Shown here one piece after another: positions 6,720 to 42,019 of a stretch of DNA of 45,787 nucleotides. A program made the position numbers and the translations under genes. The notes under the pieces were generated by a model. The model searched no databases, was not told the DNA's origin, and worked only from the letters and a program-made list of their open reading frames with translations. Position 1 is the first letter of the stretch. Every line of letters begins with the position of its first letter. This stretch comes from a virus, in the IMG/VR virus record IMGVR_UViG_3300033148_005579, positions 1 through 45,787 of that record. One strand, written 5' to 3'.

Positions 6720-7416
6720 GAAACTATCATTAGAATATATTAGAAAGGAGTTTATGAAAGAAGAATATACACTTCTTAGTAATGTGTATAAAAATAACAA
6801 ACAAAAATTAAAGTATAAATGCCCTTATGGTCATACACACTCTGTTTCTTGGGATGCGTGGTCACACATGGGCCGTAGATGCGCAGTATGTTCCGGTAAT
6901 GCTAAACTAACAATTGAGAAAGTGCGTAAAAATTTTGAGAAAGAAGGATATAAATTAATTAGTAAAGAATATATTAATGCACATACTAAATTGAAATACA
7001 TATGTCCAAATAATCATAAAAGCACTATGTCTTGGAGTAATTGGAATAATAAAAAAAGATTTAGATGTCCTAAATGTTCTAATAAAATTTCTAAGCAGGA
7101 AAAGATTATATCTAATTTTTTACGTGACTTGGGTATAAATGTTAAAACTAATGATAGAAATATGTTGGTGAATCCTATTACTGGAAGAAATTTGGAATTG
7201 GATATGTGGCTGCCAGATATGAACAAAGCAATAGAATTTAATGGTGATTATTGGCACAATGATCCGATTAGAGAAAAATGTGATAGAATAAAGAAAAAAT
7301 TATGTGAAGAATTAGATATAGATTTATTAATAGTAACATATGAAGAATGGATAGAAGATGAAGAAAAATGTAGATCAAAAATTATAAAATTTATAGGAGA
7401 TTTTTTTAATGAATAA
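6712..7416 (+). CDS. Probable homing endonuclease (zinc-ribbon repeats plus Vsr/PD-(D/E)XK-like nuclease)
   Basis: 234 residues from ATG 6712, overlapping the end of the polymerase gene by 8 bp. Two N-terminal repeats, each with LKYxCPxxH...W...C..C (about residues 35-62 and 93-122), look like paired zinc ribbons. The C-terminus has LELDMWLPDMNKAIEFNGDYWHND, the acidic/His arrangement of very-short-patch-repair-like (EDxHD) phage homing nucleases. Position immediately behind a DNA polymerase gene is typical of free-standing homing endonucleases. The ends overlap both neighbours (8 bp each), so it has been integrated without breaking either gene. Confidence 0.65.
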   Translation: MSKKLSLEYIRKEFMKEEYTLLSNVYKNNKQKLKYKCPYGHTHSVSWDAWSHMGRRCAVCSGNAKLTIEKVRKNFEKEGYKLISKEYINAHTKLKYICPNNHKSTMSWSNWNNKKRFRCPKCSNKISKQEKIISNFLRDLGINVKTNDRNMLVNPITGRNLELDMWLPDMNKAIEFNGDYWHNDPIREKCDRIKKKLCEELDIDLLIVTYEEWIEDEEKCRSKIIKFIGDFFNE

Positions 7417-7849
7417 TTTAAGAATTTATTTTAAGAAGTTAAGTGAGAAGGCAGTAATTCCAAAATATAGTAAAACTGGTGATGCCTGTTGTGATTTAAC
7501 TATTATAGAAGATTATACTATTAAACCAGGAGATATAGTTTTAACAAGAACGGGGTTTGCTATGGCATTACCTGAAGGTTTTGAAGCACAAATAAGACCA
7601 AGGAGTGGTTTGGCATTTAAAGGATTAACAGTAGTAAACTCTCCTGGTACTGTTGATGCTGGTTATAGAGGAGAAATAAAAATAATATTTACAAATTTAG
7701 GGAAAGAAAATATTGTACTTAGATCTGGAGATAGAGTTGCACAAATGAAGTTAGCGGTTGTCTATACCGGCCATTTTTTAGATGTTGGGGATAATAATCT
7801 AGAAGATACAGAAAGAGGTGGTAGTGGTTTTGGATCAACTGGATTCTAA
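7409..7849 (+). CDS. dut: dUTP diphosphatase, trimeric type
   Basis: 146 residues, ATG 7409 after TAGGAGA. All five family motifs are visible in order: SKTGDACCDL, IRPRSGLAFKG, NSPGTVDAGYRGEI (with the catalytic Asp), GDRVAQMKL, and the C-terminal ERGGSGFGSTGF that closes over the active site. The enzyme hydrolyses dUTP to dUMP and pyrophosphate, keeping uracil out of phage DNA and feeding dTMP synthesis. It works with the dCMP deaminase at 16979 and the uracil-DNA glycosylase at 23774. Length is normal for the family. Confidence 0.96.
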   Translation: MNNLRIYFKKLSEKAVIPKYSKTGDACCDLTIIEDYTIKPGDIVLTRTGFAMALPEGFEAQIRPRSGLAFKGLTVVNSPGTVDAGYRGEIKIIFTNLGKENIVLRSGDRVAQMKLAVVYTGHFLDVGDNNLEDTERGGSGFGSTGF

Positions 7850-7866
7850 TAATATAAGGAGAAAAT

Positions 7867-9600
7867 ATGGGCAAAAATAATAAATTAAGTGATAATGCAC
7901 TAACCATTGCTGAAAATAGATATTTTATGGAAGGCGAGACTTGGGAAGATTGTGCTAATAGAGTAGGTAGTGAGGCCGCCGGCGCAGAAAATGGTGACTC
8001 TAAGATTTATAGTGAGAAGTTTTCTGAAATGATATATGAAATGGATTTTTTACCTGGTGGAAGGATTTTAAGAAATACAAGAAGAGCAAGGGGATCTTTA
8101 TTTAATTGTTACGTATTACCAATAGGTGATTCTATAGAAGAAATAGGTCAATTTATGAAAGATGCTCTTATACTGTGGAGCGAAGGTGGTGGTGTAGGTT
8201 GTAATTTTTCATATCTAAGACCAAGAGGTACTGCTATAAAGGGAAAAGGTGGAACATCTTCTGGTCCTGTTAGTTTTTTAGAATCATCTGATGCTCTTGC
8301 AGGCACCATAGAATCCGGCGGCAGTAGAAGGGCCGCTTGTTTGGCTTGTATGAATGTTTCACATCCAGATATATTAGAATTTATTGATGTTAAATTAACA
8401 CACGGTAAATTAAGGAATTATAATCTTTCCGTGGCAGTAAATGGTGATTTTTTAGAAGCAGTGGAGCGTAATAAAAATTGGCAATTTAAATTTGCACAGC
8501 AAAATTATGGAACTATAGCAGCCAAGGAGATATGGGATAAGATTATAGAAAACATGATTAAATGTGCAGAACCTGGTTTATTAAACTGGAGAAATTTACA
8601 AAGTAATAATTCTTATTATTTTGATCCCATACTTTCAACAAATCCTTGTGGAGAAGTTCCTTTAGGTTCTTATGGTGTTTGTAATCTAGGCTCATTAGTG
8701 TTATCTAATTTTGTTAAGGGTCGTACAACAACCAATTGGAAAAAAATGGAATATGTTTTAAAATTAGCTGTAAGATTTCTAGATAATATTATAGATATAA
8801 ATAAATATGTTTTGAAAGAAATAGATATTAATGCACATAATGGAAGACGTGTTGGTATTGGTGTTATGGGGTTAGCAGAATATTTATTTACTAAAAAATT
8901 AAAATATGGATCTAAAGAAGCTATTTATGAAGTAGAAAGATTAATGAGATTTATAAGAGACACTGTATATGATGCATCTATTGAACTTGCTATTGAGAAA
9001 GGGGCATTTCCTAAATTTGATTCTGTTAATTTTAGTAAAGCTCATTTTGTTAGAACATTACCCGCTGCAACTAGAATGGCAATAAAAAAACATGGTATTA
9101 GAAATGTTAGTTTAATGGCTGTTGCACCCACAGGAACTATTAGTTTATTACCAGAAGTAACTTCTAGTATAGAACCTTTATTTCTTAAGGCATATTTAAG
9201 ATCTGATAGAATAGGTAAAAGATTATATGTGAACCCTATATACAAGGAAGCCTTGTTAAATAATACTGATGGAGAAATTGAGGATTGGTTTGTTGACACT
9301 AGTGATTTAAAACCGGCAGATCATTTTGAAACACAAGCAATTGTTCAAAAATATGTTGATGGTGCTATTTCAAAGACAATTAATTTGCCAGAAAATACCA
9401 CCCCAGATGAATTGAGTGATTTAATGTTGGAATATATATATGATTTAAAAGGGGTAACGGTATACGTTGACAAAAGCCGTGAAGGTCAAATATTAAATAA
9501 AGTTTCTAGAGATGAAGTTAAAGAACATTTATTAGAAAATAAAGAGACGACTGAGGACATGGAGATTGCACAGTGTGCCTCTGGTTCTTGTGATATATAG
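7867..9600 (+). CDS. nrdJ: Class II (adenosylcobalamin-dependent) ribonucleotide reductase
   Basis: 577 residues. The signature segments are FLPGGRILRN (61-70), C81 and C272 as the redox pair, LWSEGGGVGCNFS (103-115), NPCGE (259-263) with thiyl Cys 261 and Glu 263, and APTGTISLL near 420. The C-terminal CASGSC (570-575) is the thioredoxin-accessible shuttle pair. No small-subunit gene is seen nearby and no ATP-cone is present at the N-terminus, consistent with NrdJ rather than class I. It reduces ribonucleotides to deoxyribonucleotides using vitamin B12, so the host must make or import the cofactor. The gene ends directly before a run of eight G that serves as SD for the next gene. Confidence 0.93.
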   Translation: MGKNNKLSDNALTIAENRYFMEGETWEDCANRVGSEAAGAENGDSKIYSEKFSEMIYEMDFLPGGRILRNTRRARGSLFNCYVLPIGDSIEEIGQFMKDALILWSEGGGVGCNFSYLRPRGTAIKGKGGTSSGPVSFLESSDALAGTIESGGSRRAACLACMNVSHPDILEFIDVKLTHGKLRNYNLSVAVNGDFLEAVERNKNWQFKFAQQNYGTIAAKEIWDKIIENMIKCAEPGLLNWRNLQSNNSYYFDPILSTNPCGEVPLGSYGVCNLGSLVLSNFVKGRTTTNWKKMEYVLKLAVRFLDNIIDINKYVLKEIDINAHNGRRVGIGVMGLAEYLFTKKLKYGSKEAIYEVERLMRFIRDTVYDASIELAIEKGAFPKFDSVNFSKAHFVRTLPAATRMAIKKHGIRNVSLMAVAPTGTISLLPEVTSSIEPLFLKAYLRSDRIGKRLYVNPIYKEALLNNTDGEIEDWFVDTSDLKPADHFETQAIVQKYVDGAISKTINLPENTTPDELSDLMLEYIYDLKGVTVYVDKSREGQILNKVSRDEVKEHLLENKETTEDMEIAQCASGSCDI

Positions 9601-9614
9601 GGGGGGGGAAAAAT

Positions 9615-10211
9615 ATGAAATTAGGATTCGATTTGGATGAAGTGGTGATTAACCTAGTTGATGTATTGATAAGATATATAAAAGAAGAATTTGATTTAGA
9701 TTGGACTATAGATAATTTTGTTAAGTATGATATGTTAGAAAATAAATTTCATAAAGATATTGATGAAAATAACAAAATTGCTTGGCGGGCGATAAATATA
9801 GTCAGTGATATAGATATTCAAATGACAGCTAAACCTTATGAAGGAGCACCTGCATTTATTAGAGGATTAAAAAAAGAAGGTCATTCAATCCACTTTATAA
9901 CAGCAAGAAAACGTGGGGAAGAAAATAAGACTGTTAAATGGTTGAGAAAGTATAAAATACCATTTGATAGTGTGCATCATATTGGCTATGGTGAAGAGAA
10001 AGGACAGCTTGGTAGAGTATTAAATCTTGATTTTTATATAGATGATCATGAGGAGCATCTTGAATCCATGTATAAATATAAAAAGCGATGGAATAAAGGT
10101 TTAGCTCTAATGACCAGGCCGTGGAATGTTAGTTCTTATGATGCAAGTAAGTTTGTTAGGATTAATAATTGGGTTGAATTAAGAAGACATCTGGGAATTC
10201 ATAAGAGATAA
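9615..10211 (+). CDS. 5'(3')-deoxyribonucleotidase-like HAD phosphatase
   Basis: 198 residues, ATG 9615. FDLDEVV (5-11) gives the nucleophile D6 and the acid/base D8. FITARKRGEENKT is motif II with Thr, and FYIDDHEEHL is motif IV with the metal-binding acidic pair. Sequence order fits the NT5C-type nucleotidases. The family dephosphorylates dNMPs, here probably trimming nucleotide pools next to NrdJ and dUTPase. The ribosome binding region is an uninterrupted run of nine G (9600-9608), an unusual site that is also prone to slippage. Confidence 0.75.
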   Translation: MKLGFDLDEVVINLVDVLIRYIKEEFDLDWTIDNFVKYDMLENKFHKDIDENNKIAWRAINIVSDIDIQMTAKPYEGAPAFIRGLKKEGHSIHFITARKRGEENKTVKWLRKYKIPFDSVHHIGYGEEKGQLGRVLNLDFYIDDHEEHLESMYKYKKRWNKGLALMTRPWNVSSYDASKFVRINNWVELRRHLGIHKR

Positions 10212-10222
10212 GGAGGATTAAT

Positions 10223-10636
10223 ATGGCTAAGAAGAAGAAGAAGGATAAGGTTGGTAAAAAGGTGAGTTGTACGTTATGTAAAGCACAGTATAATAGTTTT
10301 TGTACAATCAAAAGAGTTTCTGTATCTTTAAATAAAAAAAGACACTGTGATAGATATGATTTTGATGAAAGCAAAGTTAAAGATGGTGTTCCCATTCCCA
10401 CTAAGAGGATTACTTTTAGAGAGAAAGAAGTTATTAGAAAAGAACGAAAGGAACAACTTAAGGAACTTAAAGACCAAATAAAGAAGCAAGGTGGTGGTTA
10501 TACTGCTGAGATTAGTACCCCCGTAAAAGACTCTAGAATTTATAAACCTTATGGTAATGAAAAATATCCACTAACTGGTGATTTAAGTAGATTTACCACA
10601 ACAGGAAGTAGTGATGATGACAAAGATAAGACCTAG
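10223..10636 (+). CDS. Small basic Cys-motif protein, function unknown
   Basis: 137 residues, ATG 10223 after AAGGAGG. It starts with a Lys-rich stretch, then a possible zinc site (CTLCKAQYNSFC and HC around residues 16-42), a charged helical middle (REKEVIRKERKEQLKELKD) and an acidic, Asp-rich tail. I do not recognise the family. Its tail overlaps the RNase HII start by about 20 bp, so the two are coupled. Nucleic-acid binding is plausible from charge and the Cys pairs but is not shown. Confidence 0.7.
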   Translation: MAKKKKKDKVGKKVSCTLCKAQYNSFCTIKRVSVSLNKKRHCDRYDFDESKVKDGVPIPTKRITFREKEVIRKERKEQLKELKDQIKKQGGGYTAEISTPVKDSRIYKPYGNEKYPLTGDLSRFTTTGSSDDDKDKT

Positions 10637-11231
10637 TTATTCTATAGAGTTGGAACACATTGAGAAGGGATATAAGTTTGTAGCTGGTGTTGATGAAGCC
10701 GGCCGTGGGCCAGGCGCCGGCCCGGTGGCAGCTGCCGCTGTTAGAATTCCCTCTAATCATGTAGAGGATCTAATAAAATTAGGAGTAAATGACTCTAAAA
10801 AATTATCTGAGAAACGCAGAGAAATTTTATATGAAAAAATAATATATGACTGTGATTATGGTATAGGCATAATAACTAATGATATTATAGATGAAATAAA
10901 TATACTAGAGGCTACTAAACTTGCTATGGTTAAAGCCATAAATGATTTAGATTTATGTGATTATGTTCTTGTGGATGGTACTATTTTATTAAAGATACCT
11001 ATTGAGCAAGAACAAATAATAAAAGGTGATACTAAGTCATTATCCATAGCAGCTGCTAGTATATTAGCTAAGGTTACAAGGGATAGGATAATGTATGATC
11101 TTCATGATGTTTTTCCTGTGTATTCGTGGGATACAAATAAAGGATATTTAACCAAGAAACATATGGAAGCTATAAATAAATATGGAGTGACTGAGTATCA
11201 TAGATTATCTTTTAAAAGGGTTGGAAAATAG
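10617..11231 (+). CDS. rnhB: Ribonuclease HII
   Basis: 204 residues from ATG 10617; ATG 10614 and GTG 10611 are alternatives, and AGGAAG 5' of 10610 suits 10617. AGVDEAGRGPGAGPV (residues 23-37) holds the catalytic Asp-Glu pair, followed by VNDSKKLS, the third acidic site in VDG, and GDTKSLSIAAASILAKV. The C-terminus is complete (HRLSFKRV). It nicks RNA-DNA hybrids at ribonucleotides, probably for primer removal and excision repair. This compensates for the missing 5'-nuclease of the polymerase. The active-site codons are strikingly GC-rich (10696-10736) against an AT-rich gene. Confidence 0.95.
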   Translation: MTKIRPSYSIELEHIEKGYKFVAGVDEAGRGPGAGPVAAAAVRIPSNHVEDLIKLGVNDSKKLSEKRREILYEKIIYDCDYGIGIITNDIIDEINILEATKLAMVKAINDLDLCDYVLVDGTILLKIPIEQEQIIKGDTKSLSIAAASILAKVTRDRIMYDLHDVFPVYSWDTNKGYLTKKHMEAINKYGVTEYHRLSFKRVGK

Positions 11232-11234
11232 ATT

Positions 11235-12497
11235 ATGAAAGATTATCTTATAATATCATCTTTTACAACAGATGAAGGCGTATCACAGGCAAGTATGTTT
11301 CATATAACTACATTCTTAAAAAATATGAATCTTACTTATGATGTGTTAGATGTAGGTGGTAATATAGATTATTACGATCCGCCTGAGCATATTTATAGTG
11401 AATTAAACAAAGCACTGTGGTTGAAGAAAGAATTATTTGATGAGGAATGGATAGATAGTTATATACCAAAAGTAGAAGAAAATAAATATGATATAATCTT
11501 ATGTTCAGCTTTATTCTCATTAGATATAATATTTCAAGGTGGGTATGTTAAAAGATATAAAGAAAAATATAAAGGATCTAGAGCTGTTATTGGTGGAGCA
11601 GCATTAAAAAATTTAAGTAAAGAACAGTATAAAGTAATAGCTTCGGTGTTTGATGAGATTTATACACACGATATAATTAATAATCCAGATTACTCATTAC
11701 TACCTATAGATAATTTTATTACAGTTATGACGGGGAGTGGTTGTAATTGGAAGAAATGTAAATTTTGTAATAGTGGCAAACAAATATATTATTTAAGGGA
11801 TTTAGATAATATAGTTAATGATTTTATAGATATTTCAGAGTTGTCTCCTAACACAGAAATAATGTTGTCTTCCGATTCTATACCAATTAAAGATTTAAAA
11901 CTTTTGATGACAAAGCTAAAGAGAGTTAAAAACAAACAAAAATATAATTTCATGGTAAGAGCAAGTAATGAGATTGATAAGGATTTTTCGTTATTAGTAA
12001 AAGAATCTAGTTGTACAGACGTTTTTGTGGGGGTGGAGATATTTGATGACAAAGGTTTAAGAACCATCAATAAAGGTATAAATGTCGATATTATTAAAAA
12101 GTCTGTAATCAATTTAAGCCATTATACTAATATTCATATAGGATTGATACTGTTTCTTCCCCATATATCACAAAAGCAGTTGGATAAGCAACTCAAAAAT
12201 TTAGAAGAACTTTTACCTTATGTCGATAATATAGAATTAGAAACCTTATCCATATTACAGGGTTCTGAGTTTCATAAAGACCATAAAAAATATGGTATAC
12301 AATTGTTTCCAAAGAGTAATTTGATTTTTGATTACTGGTGTTATGGGTTAAGTCCAGATGTTCCATGGACATTTAAAAATAAAAATAAATTAAATATGTG
12401 GTTTAAGCATATTGAACAGTTAAAAAATTTGCTAAATAATCATGTGGATGACCAGTATTGGGAGCATACTGATTATATAAAAGAGGGGGTAATATGA
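11235..12497 (+). CDS. Radical SAM protein of the B12-binding-like group
   Basis: 420 residues. An N-terminal alpha/beta region of about 150 residues (YLIISSFTTDEGVSQ, YDIILCSALFSLD, AVIGGAAL) resembles the cobalamin-binding half of B12-type radical SAM proteins, but no DxHxxG cofactor motif is seen. The cluster motif GSGCNWKKCKFCNSGK has Cys 170, 175 and 178, a CX4CX2C spacing instead of CX3CX2C. GVEIFDDKGLRTINKGI is typical of this group. Substrate unknown; methylation or RiPP-like modification are possibilities. It is followed by the small ORF and SpeD-like gene with overlap, hinting at one pathway. Confidence 0.75.
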   Translation: MKDYLIISSFTTDEGVSQASMFHITTFLKNMNLTYDVLDVGGNIDYYDPPEHIYSELNKALWLKKELFDEEWIDSYIPKVEENKYDIILCSALFSLDIIFQGGYVKRYKEKYKGSRAVIGGAALKNLSKEQYKVIASVFDEIYTHDIINNPDYSLLPIDNFITVMTGSGCNWKKCKFCNSGKQIYYLRDLDNIVNDFIDISELSPNTEIMLSSDSIPIKDLKLLMTKLKRVKNKQKYNFMVRASNEIDKDFSLLVKESSCTDVFVGVEIFDDKGLRTINKGINVDIIKKSVINLSHYTNIHIGLILFLPHISQKQLDKQLKNLEELLPYVDNIELETLSILQGSEFHKDHKKYGIQLFPKSNLIFDYWCYGLSPDVPWTFKNKNKLNMWFKHIEQLKNLLNNHVDDQYWEHTDYIKEGVI

Positions 12498-18733: not shown

Positions 18734-19274
18734 CAAGAATAAGACATTTACTAACCCTTCAACGGATGAGCATGTCCTTGAAGCCGAACGTCTAAAGAAA
18801 GCGTGGTTTGATCATGTTTTAAATAGTATTGAACGCCTCGCTGAAAGCGATGAGAAAGTTTTTTGTGAGCTACAGATTACAAAAAATGAATTTTATAAAG
18901 AAATTTCAGAAGTTAAGGATACTATAAGAAAAGAAATTAATGCGTTACATAAAGATGTAGATTTAGATATGGATAGATTAGAAAAACGGTTGATTAGAGC
19001 TATTGATATTGTTAGTAAAACCATAGATACTATATCAGTTAAAGAAGTTAGAGATGAATTAAAAAAAGATTTAATATTATTAAAAGCAGAATATAAAGAC
19101 GAATTAGATTCTATAAAGAGAGATGGACTAAAACCACTTAGTGAAGATATAGTTAAATTACGTATAAAAATGGCTAAATGGGGTGGTTTAGGTGGTTTAA
19201 TATTTAGTGCCATCGTGTTTTTGCTTAAATGGTTGGTACCTATAATTATAAGTGGTATAAAACATGCACAATAA
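18723..19274 (+). CDS. Coiled-coil protein with one C-terminal membrane segment
   Basis: 183 residues. A long charged, heptad-like helix region (about 20-150) is followed by a single hydrophobic segment (GGLIFSAIVFLLKWLVPIIIS, residues 159-179) and a short basic tail. It would be tail-anchored with the coiled coil in the cytoplasm. A holin or a membrane-tethered scaffold are possible, but the lysis enzyme is 24 kb away. The end overlaps the PAS gene by 11 bp, suggesting a link to the sensor. Confidence 0.65.
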   Translation: MPNDKNKTFTNPSTDEHVLEAERLKKAWFDHVLNSIERLAESDEKVFCELQITKNEFYKEISEVKDTIRKEINALHKDVDLDMDRLEKRLIRAIDIVSKTIDTISVKEVRDELKKDLILLKAEYKDELDSIKRDGLKPLSEDIVKLRIKMAKWGGLGGLIFSAIVFLLKWLVPIIISGIKHAQ

Positions 19275-20499
19275 CCAGGGTAATATGAATAATTTTGATA
19301 TAGGATTAAATAAGTTACGTGAATTAACTGGCAAACTTACTGAGAATGGTTATTTAGTCGACCGTGCTGAACAATGGGAGTTTGCACTTGATGCTATACC
19401 TGATTTAGTGTTTATAGTTAATCAGAATTATAAAATTAAATTTATAAATAAAGCGTTAGTTGAAAAACTGGATATTGATAGAAATGATGTTGTAGATAAA
19501 AATTGTTGTGAGGTTTTTTCTGATACAAAAAATGTTTGTTTGTGTCGTATAAACCTTTCAACTAGTAATTTATTAAATTATGATTTTGAAAACAACAAGC
19601 AGTTAGATGGAACCATTAATTTAGGTGACATTCATATAGAATCAGTTTTAAATGGTTGGTTTAATTTCACAAGATCATCCATATTCGATGATGATGGTGA
19701 TCTACTAGGTTTTATTTGTGTACTTAGAGACATTACGGATCGTATAGAAGTAGTTGAGGAGTTAAGAAAAAGTGAGGAGAAATATCGAAACATACATGAA
19801 ACAGCGCCCCTTGCTTTTATTAGTTGGGATTTTGGTTGTAGAATAACAGAGTGGAATAAAAATGCTGAAAAAATATTTGGTTGGGAGAAAGAAGAAATTG
19901 TAGGCAAAGATTTTTTTGACTATATTATTCCACATCAAACAAGAAATGATTTTGAATGTATTGTTCGAGATCTTTCAGATGATTATGTGGAGAACGTTGT
20001 TAATGAGAATGTTACTAAAACCGGCAAGATAATAATATGTGAATGGTATAATTCAGTATTTCATGATTGTAGTGGTAAACCCACAGGTGTTATTTCATTA
20101 GTATCTGATATTTCTGAAGAAAAAGAAAAAGAAAAGTTAATAAGAAGTATTTTTAAGGCTTCTCCCTCTGGTATAGGTCTTATTAAAGATAGAATTATAC
20201 AGTGGTCTAATAAAAAATTGAGAGAGATGACTGGTTATAGTGAGGAGGAGTTGAATAAAAAAGATATTCGTATTCTCTATGACTCTGATAAAGAATACAA
20301 CCGTGTTGGTGATATTATGTATAGCCAACTTTCTGATAAAGGTTATGGATATATCAGAACAATTTGGCAAAAGAAAAACAGCGATGTTATGAATGTTTTG
20401 TTAAGCTCTGCTCAGGTTGATGAAAAGGGCGTATCAAAAGATATTATATTTACAGTTACTGATGTAACTAATTGGGGCAAACAGGATAAAAGTCTTTAA
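19264..20499 (+). CDS. Triple PAS-domain sensor protein without kinase domain
   Basis: 411 residues with three PAS domains: about 23-155 (AIPDLVFIVNQNYKIKFIN), 165-285 (GCRITEWNKNAEKIFGW, VISLVSDISEEKEKEKL) and 290-405 (KDRIIQWSNKKLREMTGYS, FTVTDVTNWG). Each has the core beta strands and a closing DIT/DVT motif. The first contains a Cys cluster (NCCEVF, CLCRI) that could hold a redox or metal cofactor. No histidine kinase, GGDEF or HTH output domain follows; the protein stops after the third PAS. The next gene, 11 bp away, encodes a receiver-like protein, the obvious partner. PAS proteins are rare in phages. Confidence 0.88.
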   Translation: MHNNQGNMNNFDIGLNKLRELTGKLTENGYLVDRAEQWEFALDAIPDLVFIVNQNYKIKFINKALVEKLDIDRNDVVDKNCCEVFSDTKNVCLCRINLSTSNLLNYDFENNKQLDGTINLGDIHIESVLNGWFNFTRSSIFDDDGDLLGFICVLRDITDRIEVVEELRKSEEKYRNIHETAPLAFISWDFGCRITEWNKNAEKIFGWEKEEIVGKDFFDYIIPHQTRNDFECIVRDLSDDYVENVVNENVTKTGKIIICEWYNSVFHDCSGKPTGVISLVSDISEEKEKEKLIRSIFKASPSGIGLIKDRIIQWSNKKLREMTGYSEEELNKKDIRILYDSDKEYNRVGDIMYSQLSDKGYGYIRTIWQKKNSDVMNVLLSSAQVDEKGVSKDIIFTVTDVTNWGKQDKSL

Positions 20500-26569: not shown

Positions 26570-27034
26570 ATGATTAATAATTTTGATGATGAATATATGT
26601 TTCTTAGTAATTTTTTTGAATTAAAAACCCCAATTACCGTTGATGGTTTGGTGTTTAGAACTAATGAGCATTTTTTTCAAGCTTATAAAACTTTAAATGA
26701 AAGAGATAGAATTTGGATTGCTAACCAAGCGACACCTGGAGCGGCTAAAAAAGCCGGAAATAAAGGTGGTATTGGCAGAAAAATAAAATTGAGAGACGAT
26801 TGGAATATAATAAAATTTGATGTTATGTTTATGGGATTGTTTTTAAAATTTATAAATAATGAAGATCTATCTATTAAATTAATAGAAACTGCCCCAAAGA
26901 TTTTGGTTGAAGATAATTGGTGGCATGATAATATTTGGGGAAATTGTACGTGTGGACAATGTGTTAATATAGAAGGACAGAATCATCTTGGATTACAATT
27001 AATGGAGGTAAGAAGACTATTAAGTTTGTTGTAA
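26570..27034 (+). CDS. NADAR-family protein (YbiA-like N-glycosidase)
   Basis: 154 residues. FLSNFFELKTPITVDG at the N-terminus, NEHFFQAYKT (about 32-41), TPGAAKKAGNKGG and ILVEDNWWHDNIWGNC are the family signature. Members hydrolyse N-glycosidic bonds; some are known to remove ADP-ribose from guanine, reversing DarT-type toxins, while YbiA acts on riboflavin intermediates. In a phage, an anti-defence role against ADP-ribosylating systems or NAD-linked signalling is plausible. The Cys pair CTCGQC near the end is not a general family feature. Confidence 0.88.
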   Translation: MINNFDDEYMFLSNFFELKTPITVDGLVFRTNEHFFQAYKTLNERDRIWIANQATPGAAKKAGNKGGIGRKIKLRDDWNIIKFDVMFMGLFLKFINNEDLSIKLIETAPKILVEDNWWHDNIWGNCTCGQCVNIEGQNHLGLQLMEVRRLLSLL

Positions 27035-29785: not shown

Positions 29786-30117
29786 GGGGGCGATCTGGTT
29801 TCGACAGGGTGGATTCAGTCAAAACTTCAGCGCGTAGACGTCACAAACTACGTTAAAATTGTGAAAAAAATTAAATAGCAATTCCATGATAACTCACATG
29901 GCGGACATGTTGGACTCATGTCCAGTTCGTCATGTCGAATCTTTAACGGCGTTAGCCGTTTAAAAGATCACGAAGCTCGACAGAGCTTAGCAACAGAATC
30001 TGTCAAATAAAGATTGTGCAAGTAGTTTACTTATTGAAAATGTTTTAAATATTATCGCTGTCAACGTTTTAACATGAGGTATTCTGGACGTGGGTTCGAT
30101 TCCCACCGCTTCCACCA
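29786..30117 (+). ncRNA. ssrA: Transfer-messenger RNA
   Basis: 332 nt. The 5' end GGGGGCGATCTGGTTTCGAC and the 3' tRNA-like end (GGACGTGGGTTCGATTCCCA, then CGCTTCCACCA) are diagnostic, with acceptor GGGGGCG/CGCTTCC. Pseudoknot 1 is visible: stem CGTAG/CTACG and stem TCACAA/TTGTGA. The tag frame should start about 11-16 nt later. One frame from 29880 runs 27 codons and ends ALAV-stop at 29961-29963, degron-like; the frame one base later ends after two codons (TGA TAA). It rescues stalled ribosomes and tags their products. Downstream hairpin AACGGC-GTTA-GCCGTT covers the stop. Confidence 0.95.
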
Positions 30118-34095: not shown

Positions 34096-36066
34096 ATGTC
34101 CAAAAAAAATGACGGTGATTACTCTGTTTTTAAGAGATATCTAGAGGAAGCTGGGTTTGAGGTTTTAATTTTAAAAATACCTGCAGATGAAATTGAAGAT
34201 AAGTTGGCGTATTTGGCTAAAGAAAAGGGTCAGATTACTAAGAGTTATTTTGAGGATTTTACTATTGCTACTTGTATAGCTAATATAAATCAACTTCTCT
34301 ACCACATTAATCAACAGATGGATGATCCGCCGGATTTACTTAAGGTTAGAGAAGAACTAATGGGTTGTATAATGGAAATAAATACAACTCTCGATCCTAA
34401 TAATTTGATTTTAAATAAAAATTTTGTTATAAAAATTAAAGATGGTAAGTTAAATGTTGGTGAAAAACTTTTAACTGAAAATAAATATTGGGACATTTCT
34501 TATTATGAAGATATAAATAAATTACAAGAAACGTTTGACGAAGAGCATAAAAAATTTAATGCAGAAGAGCAGAAAAAAGAAAAACAATTTAAAAAAGGTG
34601 ATAATATATCAGTTGATGATTTAGATAGTACCATTGTACAAAAATGGTGGAAAAGAATAAACAAATATATTAATGTTAAAAAGTTTAATAAAGAAGACGG
34701 AGATCTTGTTTTAAAACAAAGATATTTTCATAATAGAACTAGTTTTAATGCTTATGTAGTGTCTAAATGTGTGGTAGATTTTGAAGAGTTGTTCAGTTAT
34801 CTGGATAGTATAGGTGTGCCAGCAAGAGTTGCTCCGCCTATTCTCATGAATGAACTTTATCAGTTGTGTCGTTCATGTAATTCCTTTTTAACTTATGATA
34901 GAGCACAGGAGTTGTCTGATCAGTCAGAGAAATCAACAGGAGTTGATCCCAAACAACATCATGACTGTGGGTTAAAATCTGCAGATGTTGGTTCTATGAG
35001 TCAGTATATGAGGAAAAAGGCTCAAAGAAAGTTTAGAGATGTTCCTAAAAAAGAACTGTTAAAACTTAATGATAATATGAAGGTTTTTTTGATCGGCCAA
35101 GATCAAGCCGTTGATGATTTAACAGAAGCAATTCAGAGGGCTAGTGTTGGTTTGAAAGATCCATATAGACCGATCGGATCATTTTTATTTGCTGGTCAAA
35201 CTGGTATTGGTAAAACATTCGCGAGTAAAGTATTAGCTGATGAATTAATTAAAGGTAGGGACAATATGATCACAATTGATTGTTCTGAATACTCATCTGA
35301 TCATGAGTATGCTAAATTAATTGGTGCACCTGCTGGTTATATGGGACATGATAGTGGTGGTGTTTTAACTAATGCCGTATTGAATAACCCATTTACTGTG
35401 GTTGTTTTTGATGAAATAGAAAAAGCAAGTGTAAAGATACATGAATTGTTATTACAGATACTTGAAGAAGGTCGTTTAACAGATGGTAAAGGGGTTATGG
35501 TTTCTTTTAAAAACGCTGTTGTTATTTTGACCTCTAATGTTGGTGTCAAAGAGGTTGATGGTATTGGTAAAACCATTGGATTTGGTGATGTAGCTAAAAT
35601 TACAGATGATAAAAGAGATGGTGCTATAGATAAAGCTATCAAGAGTAAATTTAAACCTGAGTTTCTTAATAGACTTGATAATATTATTTATTTTAAATCT
35701 CTTGTTAAAAAAGATTATATGAAAATTATAGATATTGAATTGTATAAACTTAATGATAATTTGAAAAATAATGATACTGATTATAAAGAAGTAGAATTAA
35801 AGTTTGATAAAAAGATCAAAGATTTTATCTATGAAAAAGGCATTGATGAACAATATGGTGCTAGACCTTTAAAAAGATGTATAGAAAAAACAATTGCTAC
35901 ACCATTAGCTCAAAAACTACTTTCCGAAGATATAAAAAATGCTAATATTTTTGTAGCCCTTGATGGTGAGGAAGTATTGTTTAAAGTTGAACAGAAAATA
36001 GATGAGATCCCTTTTTATATGTCTAATCAACACGAAAAAATTGAAAAAAATTTTAAAAAGGATTAA
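34096..36066 (+). CDS. Clp/Hsp100-type AAA+ unfoldase, ClpA-D2-like
   Basis: 656 residues with one AAA+ module: Walker A GQTGIGKT (near 367-374), pore loop AGYMGHD, Walker B VVVFDEIEKA (near 433-442), sensor 1 LTSNVG, Arg finger FLNRLDNI (near 522), sensor 2 GARPLKR (near 588). KTIGFGD near 494 puts an IGF tripeptide where ClpA and ClpX dock on ClpP. The first ~330 residues are unlike ClpA and probably select substrate. No protease gene is seen, so it may use host ClpP. No degradation target is known; tmRNA-tagged proteins are one option. Confidence 0.88.
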   Translation: MSKKNDGDYSVFKRYLEEAGFEVLILKIPADEIEDKLAYLAKEKGQITKSYFEDFTIATCIANINQLLYHINQQMDDPPDLLKVREELMGCIMEINTTLDPNNLILNKNFVIKIKDGKLNVGEKLLTENKYWDISYYEDINKLQETFDEEHKKFNAEEQKKEKQFKKGDNISVDDLDSTIVQKWWKRINKYINVKKFNKEDGDLVLKQRYFHNRTSFNAYVVSKCVVDFEELFSYLDSIGVPARVAPPILMNELYQLCRSCNSFLTYDRAQELSDQSEKSTGVDPKQHHDCGLKSADVGSMSQYMRKKAQRKFRDVPKKELLKLNDNMKVFLIGQDQAVDDLTEAIQRASVGLKDPYRPIGSFLFAGQTGIGKTFASKVLADELIKGRDNMITIDCSEYSSDHEYAKLIGAPAGYMGHDSGGVLTNAVLNNPFTVVVFDEIEKASVKIHELLLQILEEGRLTDGKGVMVSFKNAVVILTSNVGVKEVDGIGKTIGFGDVAKITDDKRDGAIDKAIKSKFKPEFLNRLDNIIYFKSLVKKDYMKIIDIELYKLNDNLKNNDTDYKEVELKFDKKIKDFIYEKGIDEQYGARPLKRCIEKTIATPLAQKLLSEDIKNANIFVALDGEEVLFKVEQKIDEIPFYMSNQHEKIEKNFKKD

Positions 36067-36068
36067 AA

Positions 36069-36572
36069 ATGGATGAATTAGAAGCAAATTTAAATGCTAC
36101 GTTGGTTGCTTTAAAAGTTAATTATAAAAAAATAGGGTTAATGAAAAACATAGCTAATCTTTTTTTAATTGATTCTTTTGGAGTGCTTGTGTGTACCATG
36201 TACAGAAAAGACTATACACTCGTTGCTACGGCATTGAAAGATTCTTACAAAGATTGGAGAGTTATTTATATCGTTGTACAAGATAATTTTTTGGAAAAGA
36301 AAGATGAAATTATTTGGGAACTGATGAGGAGCGGTTATTTAAAGTGGCTAAGAACAGAGAGATGCTCTGACTCAGAGTTTAGAAGAATGATGTTTAATGG
36401 TGGTTTTGCTAATAAACTTATTAATAAAAGATTAAAACTTTATGGAGACGCGCCCAAATATAGGTATCTAAGACTATGTGATGAGTTTGCGAAGGGACAA
36501 GGAAGAATAAGTGAATACTTATCTAAAGAACCGGCATTTTTTGATTTTATGCCAGAACAAATTACTTTATAG
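36069..36572 (+). CDS. Unknown protein
   Basis: 167 residues, starting 3 bp after the unfoldase stop. Mixed alpha/beta N-terminal half (NLFLIDSFGVLVCTM, WRVIYIVVQDNFL), basic helical C-terminal half (KLINKRLKLYGDAPKYRYL). Could be an adaptor for the unfoldase by position. No family recognised. Confidence 0.65.
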   Translation: MDELEANLNATLVALKVNYKKIGLMKNIANLFLIDSFGVLVCTMYRKDYTLVATALKDSYKDWRVIYIVVQDNFLEKKDEIIWELMRSGYLKWLRTERCSDSEFRRMMFNGGFANKLINKRLKLYGDAPKYRYLRLCDEFAKGQGRISEYLSKEPAFFDFMPEQITL

Positions 36573-37205: not shown

Positions 37206-37913
37206 ATGAAATTTTTTTATTCAGCATCAGTTATGGGGTATGGTTTCGGATATGATTGGCACAAGAAGTATAATTTTCCTAATTTCCCTAGAGTTACTAG
37301 AACTTTAACTTGGGATAAGAAATTAGGTATACCTTTTGCTATATTAAAATATGGGAACACTGTGTGGAACAAGGTTGGTTTGCATAACATGGGATTTTTT
37401 GATTGGTGTTTAGATTATACGATTCATGGTAACACTGTATATGATTTATCAAATGTTATGATTTCTATAGCCGGCTATGATTGGCAAATAAAAGGTATGA
37501 TTAATTATATTGAAGAGTCAGATTTAAATATTGCTGGAATAGAATTAAATTTTTCATGTCCGAATGTTAAAAGTTTTGACAATAGAGAGATACCAAAAAC
37601 TAAGTATCCTTTGTATTTAAAACTAAATTATACCCAGGACCCTTATGAATATGATTTAGATAATGTGGCTGGAATAAGATTAAATTCTATCCCCACTATA
37701 TTTGGAGGTCTTTCTGGTAAGGCTGCTCAGTTAAAAAATTGGAAGTTTATTGAAAATCATAATTGGCAAGGATTAAATATAGCAGGTTGTTCATTTACAA
37801 ATGTAGATGATATAAGAATACTTTCTAATATGAGTTGTTCAGAGATAGGGATAGGTTCTATTATAATGACTGATCCAAAGTTTGTTGAGTCCTTAGACAA
37901 ACTTGGTGTTTAA
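37206..37913 (+). CDS. Dihydroorotate-dehydrogenase-like FMN barrel protein
   Basis: 235 residues. GIELNFSCPNVKSF (111-124) matches the PyrD segment with the catalytic-base Cys of class 1 enzymes, YLKLNYT the FMN-contacting Lys strand, and IFGGLSGKAAQ the glycine loop; SEIGIGSIIMTDP resembles the last phosphate-binding strand. It is about 70 residues shorter than typical PyrD, missing part of the N-terminus. It may supply pyrimidines or act on another flavin substrate. Phage copies are unusual. Confidence 0.6.
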   Translation: MKFFYSASVMGYGFGYDWHKKYNFPNFPRVTRTLTWDKKLGIPFAILKYGNTVWNKVGLHNMGFFDWCLDYTIHGNTVYDLSNVMISIAGYDWQIKGMINYIEESDLNIAGIELNFSCPNVKSFDNREIPKTKYPLYLKLNYTQDPYEYDLDNVAGIRLNSIPTIFGGLSGKAAQLKNWKFIENHNWQGLNIAGCSFTNVDDIRILSNMSCSEIGIGSIIMTDPKFVESLDKLGV

Positions 37914-37925
37914 AGGAGTATTAAA

Positions 37926-38393
37926 ATGAATAATGATAAAGAAGATGGAAATGGTGGTTGTCCATCAGTACCTAAAAGAATTAATCCTTGGATTAAATTA
38001 GCAGCAGGAATACTTGGTTTGATTTTACTTGTTGGTGGTGTCATTTGGGGGTCGGTTAATACTTTTGCGATGAAGCCGGAAGTTTTAGCTGTTAAAGTTG
38101 AGGCTGAAAGGGGAAGACAATTACTTGCTGAGAAATCAGTAGAAACATTTAATATATTTCAGAAAGCATATAGGGAAGACCAAGAAAGATTTAGACAAGA
38201 GCAGGAACGTACTCAAATAAAAAATGATATAAAAAATTGGCAACAAAGACTTAACGATTCTTATAGAAATGAACGTCATATAAGAGATGATTTACAAAAG
38301 AATCCAAATGATTTAGTATTAAAAAATAGATTACAAGAAGAGCAAAGATTACAACAGTTATATCAACAGAAGTTAAATGAACTTCTAAGGTAG
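37926..38393 (+). CDS. Membrane-anchored coiled-coil protein (possible inner-membrane spanin-like)
   Basis: 155 residues. One hydrophobic segment (LAAGILGLILLVGGVIWGSV, about 25-44) then a long Gln/Glu/Arg-rich coiled coil to the end. Type II topology like i-spanins, but it is not next to the endolysin, so the assignment is only a possibility. Confidence 0.55.
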   Translation: MNNDKEDGNGGCPSVPKRINPWIKLAAGILGLILLVGGVIWGSVNTFAMKPEVLAVKVEAERGRQLLAEKSVETFNIFQKAYREDQERFRQEQERTQIKNDIKNWQQRLNDSYRNERHIRDDLQKNPNDLVLKNRLQEEQRLQQLYQQKLNELLR

Positions 38394-38408
38394 TTTGGAG
38401 ATTATATT

Positions 38409-39203
38409 ATGGCTGAAGACATACAAAAAGTTGAAGTTGAAGAATCTAGTGATGGTTTGGGTGAGTTATTAGATCCCACTTATCCTTTATTACAAAGACT
38501 TAGAGAAAATTGTCCGGGTACTTTTAAACATTCCCAAACGGTAATGTCTATGTTAGAGACTATAAGTTTGTCATTGGGACTTGATGTTGTTTTTATGAAA
38601 GTTGCCGGTCAATACCATGACATAGGAAAAGTAAATAACCCTAAATTTTTTTCAGAAAATCAATTGGATGAAGACGGGAATCCACATGATAATTTAGACA
38701 CTAGAATGAGTTATCATATAATAAGTAGACATGTCTCTGATGGTATAAATATATTGGTAAATGATCATAAATTTCCTAGGAAACTTATAGAAGTAGTAAG
38801 TCAACATCATGGGACATCTGTGGTACAATATTTTTTTGATAAATCAGGTTCCGATTTAGAAGATGCTTATAGATATAAGTGTTCCCGTCCAACGTGTATT
38901 GAGTCTGCAGCATTAATGATTGCTGATCATGTTGAGGCAACTTCTCGCTCAAAATTACAGGCCGGAAAACTAGATCCATCTGAGATCATTGATTCTATTA
39001 TTCAGAAATTATTAGATGATGGTCAATTAGACGATGTTTACATGCGTCTTGGTGATTTAAAAAAAATAAAAGAGTCCTTATCTAAGGAATTAGAAGGGGC
39101 CTACCAAAAGAGGGTGGATTATGATAAAGCAAAAAAAGAGCCTAATAAAAAAAAGACATCGAGAAAAGAACCAAAAGAAAAGACGCTTAAAGAAAAACCT
39201 TAA
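38409..39203 (+). CDS. HD-domain cyclic-dinucleotide phosphodiesterase (PgpH-like)
   Basis: 264 residues. The domain follows the cytoplasmic HD of PgpH: GTFKHSQTVMSMLE (H41), AGQYHDIGKVNNPKFFSENQ in two parts (H70, D71), NPHDNLD, H103/H108, QHHGTSVVQYFF (H133, H134) and MIADHVEATSRS (D173). PgpH hydrolyses c-di-AMP with two metals. The membrane part and extracellular domain of PgpH are absent, so this is a soluble enzyme. It probably lowers a host second messenger or a defence nucleotide such as a CBASS signal. The C-terminus is a Lys-rich tail that overlaps the next ORF. Confidence 0.82.
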   Translation: MAEDIQKVEVEESSDGLGELLDPTYPLLQRLRENCPGTFKHSQTVMSMLETISLSLGLDVVFMKVAGQYHDIGKVNNPKFFSENQLDEDGNPHDNLDTRMSYHIISRHVSDGINILVNDHKFPRKLIEVVSQHHGTSVVQYFFDKSGSDLEDAYRYKCSRPTCIESAALMIADHVEATSRSKLQAGKLDPSEIIDSIIQKLLDDGQLDDVYMRLGDLKKIKESLSKELEGAYQKRVDYDKAKKEPNKKKTSRKEPKEKTLKEKP

Positions 39204-39321
39204 CATAGATGCTTTGGAATCTAATATAAGAAAAAATAGTAAGCTTGATAGTCACGGAATAAGTGATATAATAGAAAATCCTAAATTGTATAGAAAAGAA
39301 AGTAAATATATAAGTAGGTGA
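39121..39321 (+). CDS. Small basic ORF overlapping the HD gene
   Basis: 66 residues from ATG 39121 after GAGGGTGG, sharing 83 bp with the HD gene. Extremely basic N-terminus (KKRHREKNQKKRRLKK). Because the overlap is A-rich in both frames, part of it may be fortuitous; the portion beyond 39203 is otherwise unexplained. Confidence 0.45.
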   Translation: MIKQKKSLIKKRHREKNQKKRRLKKNLNIDALESNIRKNSKLDSHGISDIIENPKLYRKESKYISR

Positions 39322-39326
39322 TTTTT

Positions 39327-39647
39327 ATGAGTGGTGATGCTTTAAAAATATTAACAGTAGACTGTCCAAAATGTGGTGCTAAAAATATTTTTCATTTCAT
39401 ATCATATTATGATGATAAATGTTTTAATTGTGATTATGATATAATAAAACACGCACATAGTAAATTATTTGCTAAAAATAAAAAGAAAAAACTTGAAATA
39501 TTATTGGAAGAAGTTCGTTCTCTAGAACCAGAGGATGATTATCATGTGGTTAGGGCCGCAAAGATTGAATTAGGTTTAATAGATAATATAAAGAAAACCA
39601 ATTACATCTTAGCAAAGATAGAAAATTTTGATATAGAAATGTTATAG
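39327..39647 (+). CDS. Zinc-finger protein, unknown
   Basis: 106 residues from ATG 39327. CPKCG and CFNCDYD are 17 residues apart, then a charged helical part (KKKKLEILLEEVRSLEPEDD). Unknown role. Confidence 0.65.
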   Translation: MSGDALKILTVDCPKCGAKNIFHFISYYDDKCFNCDYDIIKHAHSKLFAKNKKKKLEILLEEVRSLEPEDDYHVVRAAKIELGLIDNIKKTNYILAKIENFDIEML

Positions 39648-39853: not shown

Positions 39854-40507
39854 ATGAAAAAGCTAAGAAATTTTTTCAACGAAGCAAAAAATAAATGGAA
39901 GAATAGTTTTAATAAAACAAACTTTGTAAATGATAAGATATATGAAGTTCGTTTGTGGGGTATAGATGGTAAAAGTTTTAATGAAGATGAGCAACGTGCT
40001 TGGGAAATTATAAAAGAAATTCATCAAGAAGTTCTTTTTGATGATAACAATTGGCATTTTTTTTATGAGAATTGGTATAATATTATAAGATGTTCTGCCA
40101 AATTCTATTCTAAACTTATTGAAAAACTAGATAGTCTTGGTGTATATTACAAGGAACATGGTGAGTGGATAGATGAACAAGAATCTACTCGTAAACACCA
40201 AAAAATATTTCAAGGTGTGTTTCATTATTTTACATTAATGGCTTTGGAGGAGTATGATTCGAAGGATATAGATGGTATTTATGATAGAGTATCTCATTGT
40301 TTTTTTAATCATCAATTTTATGTGTTAGAGGATATTAGAAAAGAAAACGGTGTTCAATGGGAGGCTAATCTTATGTCTAAAGCTGTAATAGAAAGGGCTG
40401 GTTATAGTTCTTATTGTTATAGTAAAGGAATTAATCCAAGCAAAAGTAATACATTTAATACATATGAAACAACTCTTATAGAACATGTTGAAAAAATATA
40501 TGAATAA
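39854..40507 (+). CDS. Unknown protein, helical
   Basis: 217 residues, ATG 39854 after AAAAGGA. Aromatic and acidic, helix-rich (NWHFFYENWYNIIRCSAKFY, HQKIFQGVFHYFTLMALEEY). His and Asp are frequent but no metal motif is clear. No family recognised. Confidence 0.65.
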   Translation: MKKLRNFFNEAKNKWKNSFNKTNFVNDKIYEVRLWGIDGKSFNEDEQRAWEIIKEIHQEVLFDDNNWHFFYENWYNIIRCSAKFYSKLIEKLDSLGVYYKEHGEWIDEQESTRKHQKIFQGVFHYFTLMALEEYDSKDIDGIYDRVSHCFFNHQFYVLEDIRKENGVQWEANLMSKAVIERAGYSSYCYSKGINPSKSNTFNTYETTLIEHVEKIYE

Positions 40508-40525: not shown

Positions 40526-40990
40526 ATGGTAGAACTCATTTGGCAACATTTGTTTTGTAATTTGCCAATTATTTCAGTTATGGTAGTGGTATTAGTTTTA
40601 TTTAAAGCCCGCTTGGATAAGAAGAAAGCTGAGAAAGAAATTAAAAGAACCCAAGATAAATTTAGAAAGTTATTATCTCAGAAAAAATCATCTGAAGTTA
40701 GGGTTGGTAAAATTGGAGAAAATATGGCTCCTTTTATGAAAGATTGGCCATACGATCCGAATAGATTTAGATTTCTAGGCAATCCAGTTGATGGAATTCA
40801 GTTTACTGATGATGAGGTTATCTTTGTTGAAATTAAAACTGGAAAAAGTAAATTAACTAAGACCCAAAGATCTATTAGAAATTTGTTAAGAAAAAAAGAT
40901 GTTGTTAGTTTCGCTACGTTCAGAGTAGGTGAAAATGGATGTACATTAAAAAGAGATGGGGAAGATGAAGAGGATGAAGAAGAAGTTTAA
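40526..40990 (+). CDS. Membrane-anchored Holliday-junction-resolvase-related nuclease
   Basis: 154 residues. A membrane helix (ISVMVVVLVLFKARL, about 16-30) and a coiled linker precede the nuclease core: GKIGENMAPF (E65), FLGNPVDGIQF (D89), IFVEIKTGKS (E102, K104), a complete PD-(D/E)XK set. The whole arrangement, including the N-terminal anchor, matches the family of predicted endonucleases related to archaeal Holliday junction resolvases. It probably cleaves branched DNA near the membrane. Acidic tail (DGEDEEDEEEV). Confidence 0.82.
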   Translation: MVELIWQHLFCNLPIISVMVVVLVLFKARLDKKKAEKEIKRTQDKFRKLLSQKKSSEVRVGKIGENMAPFMKDWPYDPNRFRFLGNPVDGIQFTDDEVIFVEIKTGKSKLTKTQRSIRNLLRKKDVVSFATFRVGENGCTLKRDGEDEEDEEEV

Positions 40991-41086: not shown

Positions 41087-42019
41087 ATGCCAAGTTGGTT
41101 GATTGTAATGTTTTTTATGTTACTAGGTGGTGGTATTGTTTATGCTGTTAGAAAACATAAAGATGATGATAACAATGATCAAGAAACAGTAGACAATTCA
41201 TCTGAGGAGGAAGATATGAAAAAATTTGCACTTGTAGTTGGAATTAACCACTACGCACTTCCAGGAATGGATTTAGCGGGTTGTGTTAATGATGCAAACA
41301 ACATGAAAAATTTTTTAATTGAATGTTGTGGGTTTGAAGAAGGTGGTATTAAAATGCTTTTGGATGACCAAGCAACTAAAGCAAACATACTTGGTCATTT
41401 AAATTGGTTACTGTCTAATAGAAAAGAGGGAGATGAATTATTTTATTATCACTCTGGACATGGCACACAGGTTACTGATATTTCTGGGGATGAATCTGAT
41501 AAATTAGATGAGGTCTTGGTGTCACATGATTTTAATTGGAGCGACCCTTTATTAGATGATGATGTTGCAGCTATATTTAAAAAACTTCCGGTAGGAGCTT
41601 TTTTATCTATGGTATGTGATACATGTCATAGTGGCAGTATGACTAAGGATATTGTTAGAAATATTGCTATGCCAAAAGAAATGGCTGAAAAAATAAATGG
41701 TAGAAGTTTAAAAATAAATAAATTTGGTGTGAAACAAAAAGGAACTAGCCCACAAAGACATATTCTTTTATCGGGATGTAAAGATGATCAAACTTCTTCT
41801 GAAACAACTATAGATGGTATGAGGCAGGGGTTGTTAACTAATACTTTTATTAAAGAGTGTAGAAAATCATATAAATCTTGGAGGGAAACACACACCAATG
41901 TTATAAACAGTTTATCAAATTGGAGTCAGGAACCTGTGTTGTCTGGTTCTGATGATTTAAAAGATAGAGTTGTGTTTGGAAATGAATTAGGTCAGCATGT
42001 GTCGATGAAGATGGTATAA
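41087..42019 (+). CDS. Membrane-anchored metacaspase (caspase-like C14 peptidase)
   Basis: 310 residues. Membrane helix WLIVMFFMLLGGGIVYAV (4-21), acidic linker (25-43), then the caspase fold: ALVVGINHYA (48-57), FYYHSGHGTQ with His 125, and VCDTCHSGSM with nucleophile Cys 180; D139-type residues for basic P1 binding follow. Metacaspases cleave after Arg/Lys. A second strong site, GAGGAGG (41204-41210), lies 5 nt before ATG 41216 (Met 44), exactly where the protease domain begins, so a soluble form is probably made too. Role in infection unknown. Confidence 0.88.
   Translation: MPSWLIVMFFMLLGGGIVYAVRKHKDDDNNDQETVDNSSEEEDMKKFALVVGINHYALPGMDLAGCVNDANNMKNFLIECCGFEEGGIKMLLDDQATKANILGHLNWLLSNRKEGDELFYYHSGHGTQVTDISGDESDKLDEVLVSHDFNWSDPLLDDDVAAIFKKLPVGAFLSMVCDTCHSGSMTKDIVRNIAMPKEMAEKINGRSLKINKFGVKQKGTSPQRHILLSGCKDDQTSSETTIDGMRQGLLTNTFIKECRKSYKSWRETHTNVINSLSNWSQEPVLSGSDDLKDRVVFGNELGQHVSMKMV

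Follow-up and report, generated by a model that had tools for sequence, protein, structure and literature searches.

The window analyzed here is a whole IMG/VR virus record of 45,787 bases, a fragment that carries phage polymerase, clamp-loader, endolysin and homing-endonuclease genes together with genes for 13 tRNAs and one tmRNA. The phage-borne tmRNA lies among the tRNA genes at 29786-30117 and has the predicted tag VTNYVKIVKKIK. At 38409-39203 (+ strand) we found an intact open reading frame with an ATG start, coding for a 264-aa protein that is predicted to be a soluble PgpH-type HD phosphodiesterase. A GGAG resembling a ribosome-binding site, read from the sequence, is located 8 nt upstream of the ATG (38397-38400, + strand). 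The product matched the HD family of Pfam (E 8e-12) and HDIG of NCBIfam (E 8e-15), and a phmmer search of the PDB returned as its sole sequence match the HD domain of Lmo1466/PgpH from Listeria (4s1b, E 8e-40), aligned over residues 22-238, which places the catalytic domain at 38472-39122 (+ strand). The QHHGT motif occupies residues 132-136. No hydrophobic stretch was detected in the window protein (locus L001), inspection of its sequence revealed no GYP motif, and a PHROGs search with it returned no family.

Several genes around the HD gene, all on the + strand, recur on other virus contigs. The conserved order begins with a Clp-type AAA+ ATPase (34096-36066), continues with ORF167, to which no function was assigned (36069-36572), and leads to the HD gene; it is kept in L107, L011, L012 and L101. 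Directly upstream of the HD gene is a 155-aa protein whose single hydrophobic segment is accompanied by a charged tail, probably a coiled coil (37926-38393), and downstream is a 109-aa zinc-ribbon-like protein (39318-39647), both of them also present in L107. These are followed by a 217-aa uncharacterised protein (39854-40507), common to L107 and, partly, L010, and by a PD-(D/E)xK-type nuclease of the Endonuc_Holl family (PF10107, Pfam E 8.6e-20) with an N-terminal hydrophobic segment (40526-40990). This nuclease adjoins or lies near the HD gene where both occur, having been found on four of the 20 contigs searched, directly after the HD gene in three and two genes away in the window. In the window's clade, this Holliday-junction-type nuclease with its membrane segment comes after HD in L107, L011 and L101, L012 keeping the first three genes only. 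In another clade the gene after HD encodes a DNA ligase (cluster 10, six loci).

Other genes in the window were recorded as observations in their own right. A divergent dihydroorotate-dehydrogenase-like protein, also present in L107, is encoded at 37206-37913, with a Pfam match below the cut-off (E 3e-5), and a 411-aa protein with three PAS stretches is encoded at 19264-20499. At 41087-42019 there is a caspase-domain gene (Peptidase_C14, E 8e-28) whose product has a hydrophobic segment at its N-terminus; its SGHG and DTCHSG motifs resemble an intact His/Cys pair. Its relatives occur in L010 (63% identity), L107 and the L109 contig, and its single match among phage records was a 485-kb uncultured phage.

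To place the HD protein among HD families we used a profile built from nine phage proteins, which matched 4s1b in the PDB with an E of 1e-57, the next matches being Cas3 at 0.03 and HD-GYP at 0.2. An AlphaFold model, for which the input was nine sequences only (pLDDT 77.6, pTM 0.75), matched four PgpH HD chains (4s1b/4s1c) with E values of 3e-11 to 1.4e-10 and target TM scores of 0.82-0.85; the next fold match was HD-GYP, at an E of 0.04, and a BFVD structure search with the model gave no match at E 0.001. By sequence, profile and fold, the window protein is nearer to the HD domain of PgpH than to any other HD family. An assignment to the HD-GYP phosphodiesterases was rejected on the missing GYP motif and on these E values (no better than 0.2 in the profile search and 0.04 in the fold search), and Cas3, dNTPase and YqeK readings were ruled out by profile and fold. 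The protein is not a full-length PgpH, which comprises a 7TMR-HDED domain, seven helices and the HD domain, because it has neither membrane nor sensor modules. The prediction of a PgpH-type HD phosphodiesterase is well supported.

The metal ligands of PgpH are H514, H543, D544, H580, H604, H605 and D648 (PMC8177086); K547 stabilises the oxyanion, and D648 activates the attacking water (PMC12072042). By alignment, all of these positions have counterparts encoded on the + strand of the window: H41 corresponds to H514 (38529-38531), H70-D71 to H543-D544 (38616-38621), K74 to the oxyanion-stabilising K547 (38628-38630), H108, directly preceded by R107, to H580 (38730-38732), H133-H134 of the QHHGT motif to H604-H605 (38805-38810), and D173 to the water-activating D648 (38925-38927). 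The preliminary description of this locus had claimed a full set of HD ligands together with QHHGT, and the mapping of seven metal ligands and the catalytic lysine confirmed it. Aligned with 87 other homologues, each of the 28 phage proteins proved to retain the full set of eight catalytic residues, a conservation that is partly conditioned for H41, H70, D71 and K74, as these lie inside stretches used as search patterns, and that is free of this bias for H108, H133, H134 and D173. Because 27 further phage proteins retain the same catalytic residues, the match is far beyond chance.

Beyond the shared fold, ligands, lysine and HDIGK and QHHGT motifs, and at about 36% identity to the HD domain of PgpH (Lmo1466), the window protein differs from that enzyme in having neither the extracellular 7TMR-HDED domain nor transmembrane helices, and the phage proteins carry residues of their own beside the ligands. 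Position 107, next to the ligand H108, is R or K in all 28 phage proteins, whereas it is mostly S or A in bacteria. Q43 and N77 are each present in 25 of the 28 and are conserved in phages, not in bacteria; G112 (G584 in bacteria) is mostly replaced by S, and the GPKPQTKE stretch around 158-159 is altered relative to the bacterial sequences. These phage-wide substitutions near the predicted active site (Q43, N77, R107, positions 158-159 approximately, and G112 to S) may be indicative of a changed substrate or partner.

Relatives were found by two alignment scans of IMG/VR; an earlier scan of viral contigs with a single protein had given no match, probably owing to over-specific patterns. Counting the window protein, the phage family has 28 distinct members; the other 27, whose identity in the scan tables is 37-66%, come from IMG/VR contigs between 5 and 315 kb in length. 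These 27 relatives are all 236-280 aa long and, like the window protein, have no hydrophobic stretch. Each of the 88 homologues taken from bacterial genomes, plasmid-collection entries or mislabelled phage records is membrane-anchored, its HD domain being preceded by 5-9 hydrophobic stretches, although the genome-derived ones among them are the best 80 of more than 500 matches, so that soluble bacterial copies may exist elsewhere. In a tree of 97 rows, the nine phage rows formed one clade (SH-aLRT 100) apart from these 88 homologues; the tree is midpoint-rooted, and its rooting therefore does not indicate the bacterial source of the phage gene. Nine pairwise dN/dS estimates were made, and the five synonymously unsaturated pairs gave values of 0.04-0.41; the phage family appears to be under purifying selection. 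A T4-type capsid gene is present on six of the 28 records, all of them larger contigs, and tail-sheath genes on two. Three family members served as tblastn queries against a set of 50,697 phage records; only eight records matched, all of them judged likely to be bacterial contaminants, and no isolated phage matched the family. Sequence, fold, tree and family-wide conservation together bear out the claim that this phage encodes a PgpH-type HD domain in soluble form. The family is apparently undescribed in the searchable literature, and it represents a new variation on a known enzyme, not a novel type of system.

The reading that we consider rather probable is that the phage makes an unregulated PgpH catalytic domain, which opens a cyclic dinucleotide and drains a host nucleotide signal. 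The product would be a soluble, probably constitutively active two-metal phosphodiesterase lacking the sensor and anchor of PgpH, presumably expressed during infection, in which a metal-activated water would attack the ring of the cyclic dinucleotide. By homology to PgpH, reported to act specifically on c-di-AMP and not on c-di-GMP (PMC8177086), the most likely substrate would be host 3',5'-c-di-AMP, converted to 5'-pApA; a related cyclic dinucleotide may be the substrate instead. Of seven bacterial genomes with PgpH, six also had a diadenylate cyclase domain, which was found on none of 11 phage contigs; any c-di-AMP destroyed would therefore be host-made. With the host signal drained, the phage may gain either a reset of host ion and envelope homeostasis or a blunting of a cyclic-nucleotide defence.

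The main rival to c-di-AMP hydrolysis is counter-defence, in which the PgpH-fold enzyme would degrade CBASS-like or type III CRISPR cyclic nucleotides, as Acb1 and viral ring nucleases do. We regard this as doubtful overall, although the HD protein may neutralise CBASS. Jumbo-phage HD-GYP, HD-alarmone and DHH enzymes are predicted to be counter-nucleotide defences in the parts of Iyer et al. (2021; PMC7824862) that deal with them, and the HD-GYP and HD-alarmone enzymes resemble the window protein in being HD phosphodiesterases of phages for which nucleotide signals are the proposed target; the window protein, however, lacks GYP, belongs to the PgpH branch and falls outside the families named in those parts. 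The gene neighbourhood also offers some evidence for counter-defence. An RSH-type HD gene clusters with the HD gene in four loci of one sublineage (L115, L119, L121 and L123), SAM-lyase-like genes lie within about 2-14 kb of the HD gene in four of the five contigs having them, and the window encodes a NADAR-domain protein at 26570-27034 (Pfam E 4e-24). However, RSH-type genes are far from the HD gene in most other large contigs, and for this reason the idea that the HD gene generally sits in a nucleotide-defence island was dropped, the evidence for such an island being suggestive in one sublineage only. The reported inactivity of PgpH on c-di-GMP also argues against counter-defence, as does the fact that we found no host or CBASS link for the window phage. 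The likeness to the anti-CBASS nuclease Acb1, a phage enzyme linearising cyclic nucleotides, is in proposed role only, as its fold is unrelated and its chemistry different. Acb1 has a 2H phosphoesterase fold.

Alternatively, the protein may have another HD activity, such as that of a nucleotidase, dNTPase, Ap4A hydrolase or Cas3-like nuclease, serving nucleotide salvage or DNA processing. Consistent with this are weak Cas3-type matches (E about 1e-4) and the ribonucleotide reductase and dCMP deaminase encoded at other places in the window, but profile and fold place PgpH many orders of magnitude away from Cas3, HD-GYP, YqeK and dNTPases, making such an activity unlikely. That the gene is a bacterial pgpH fragment or contamination is extremely improbable: although the eight phage-collection matches look bacterial, and the two read in detail (L002 and L008) are membrane-anchored PgpH genes, the window has its phage polymerase, clamp-loader and endolysin genes, the gene order is kept in L107 and other virus contigs, six larger contigs carry the T4-type capsid gene, and the phage clade is separate in the tree.

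Returning to the draining of a host cyclic dinucleotide by an unregulated PgpH domain, we tentatively suggest that the family could form an undescribed class of phage signal erasers, in which large phages use a sensor-less PgpH domain on a host cyclic dinucleotide, with specificity possibly shifted towards a defence signal. The window gene comes from a large uncultured phage, and its relatives are present on many further contigs of uncultured phages, so that some phages probably erase a host nucleotide signal with this enzyme. An active enzyme would let phages directly collapse c-di-AMP, a messenger essential to many bacteria, or a related defence signal, and it would also provide a ready-made soluble c-di-AMP eraser as a laboratory tool. 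Panoptes-type systems sense the loss of cyclic dinucleotides (PMC12657218, PMC12657230); they would punish the HD enzyme if it acted on 2',3'-c-di-AMP, and an active enzyme would be a natural candidate trigger for them.

Two further observations were made by inspection of the related virus contigs. The reverse strand of L010 carries NAD synthetase-, nicotinamide phosphoribosyltransferase- and nicotinamidase-like genes (7103-11949). In L019, a protein encoded at 7350-8129 has a PEP-CTERM-like tail (VPEPASMLLLGTGLIMFG), which hints at a Gram-negative host with an exosortase.
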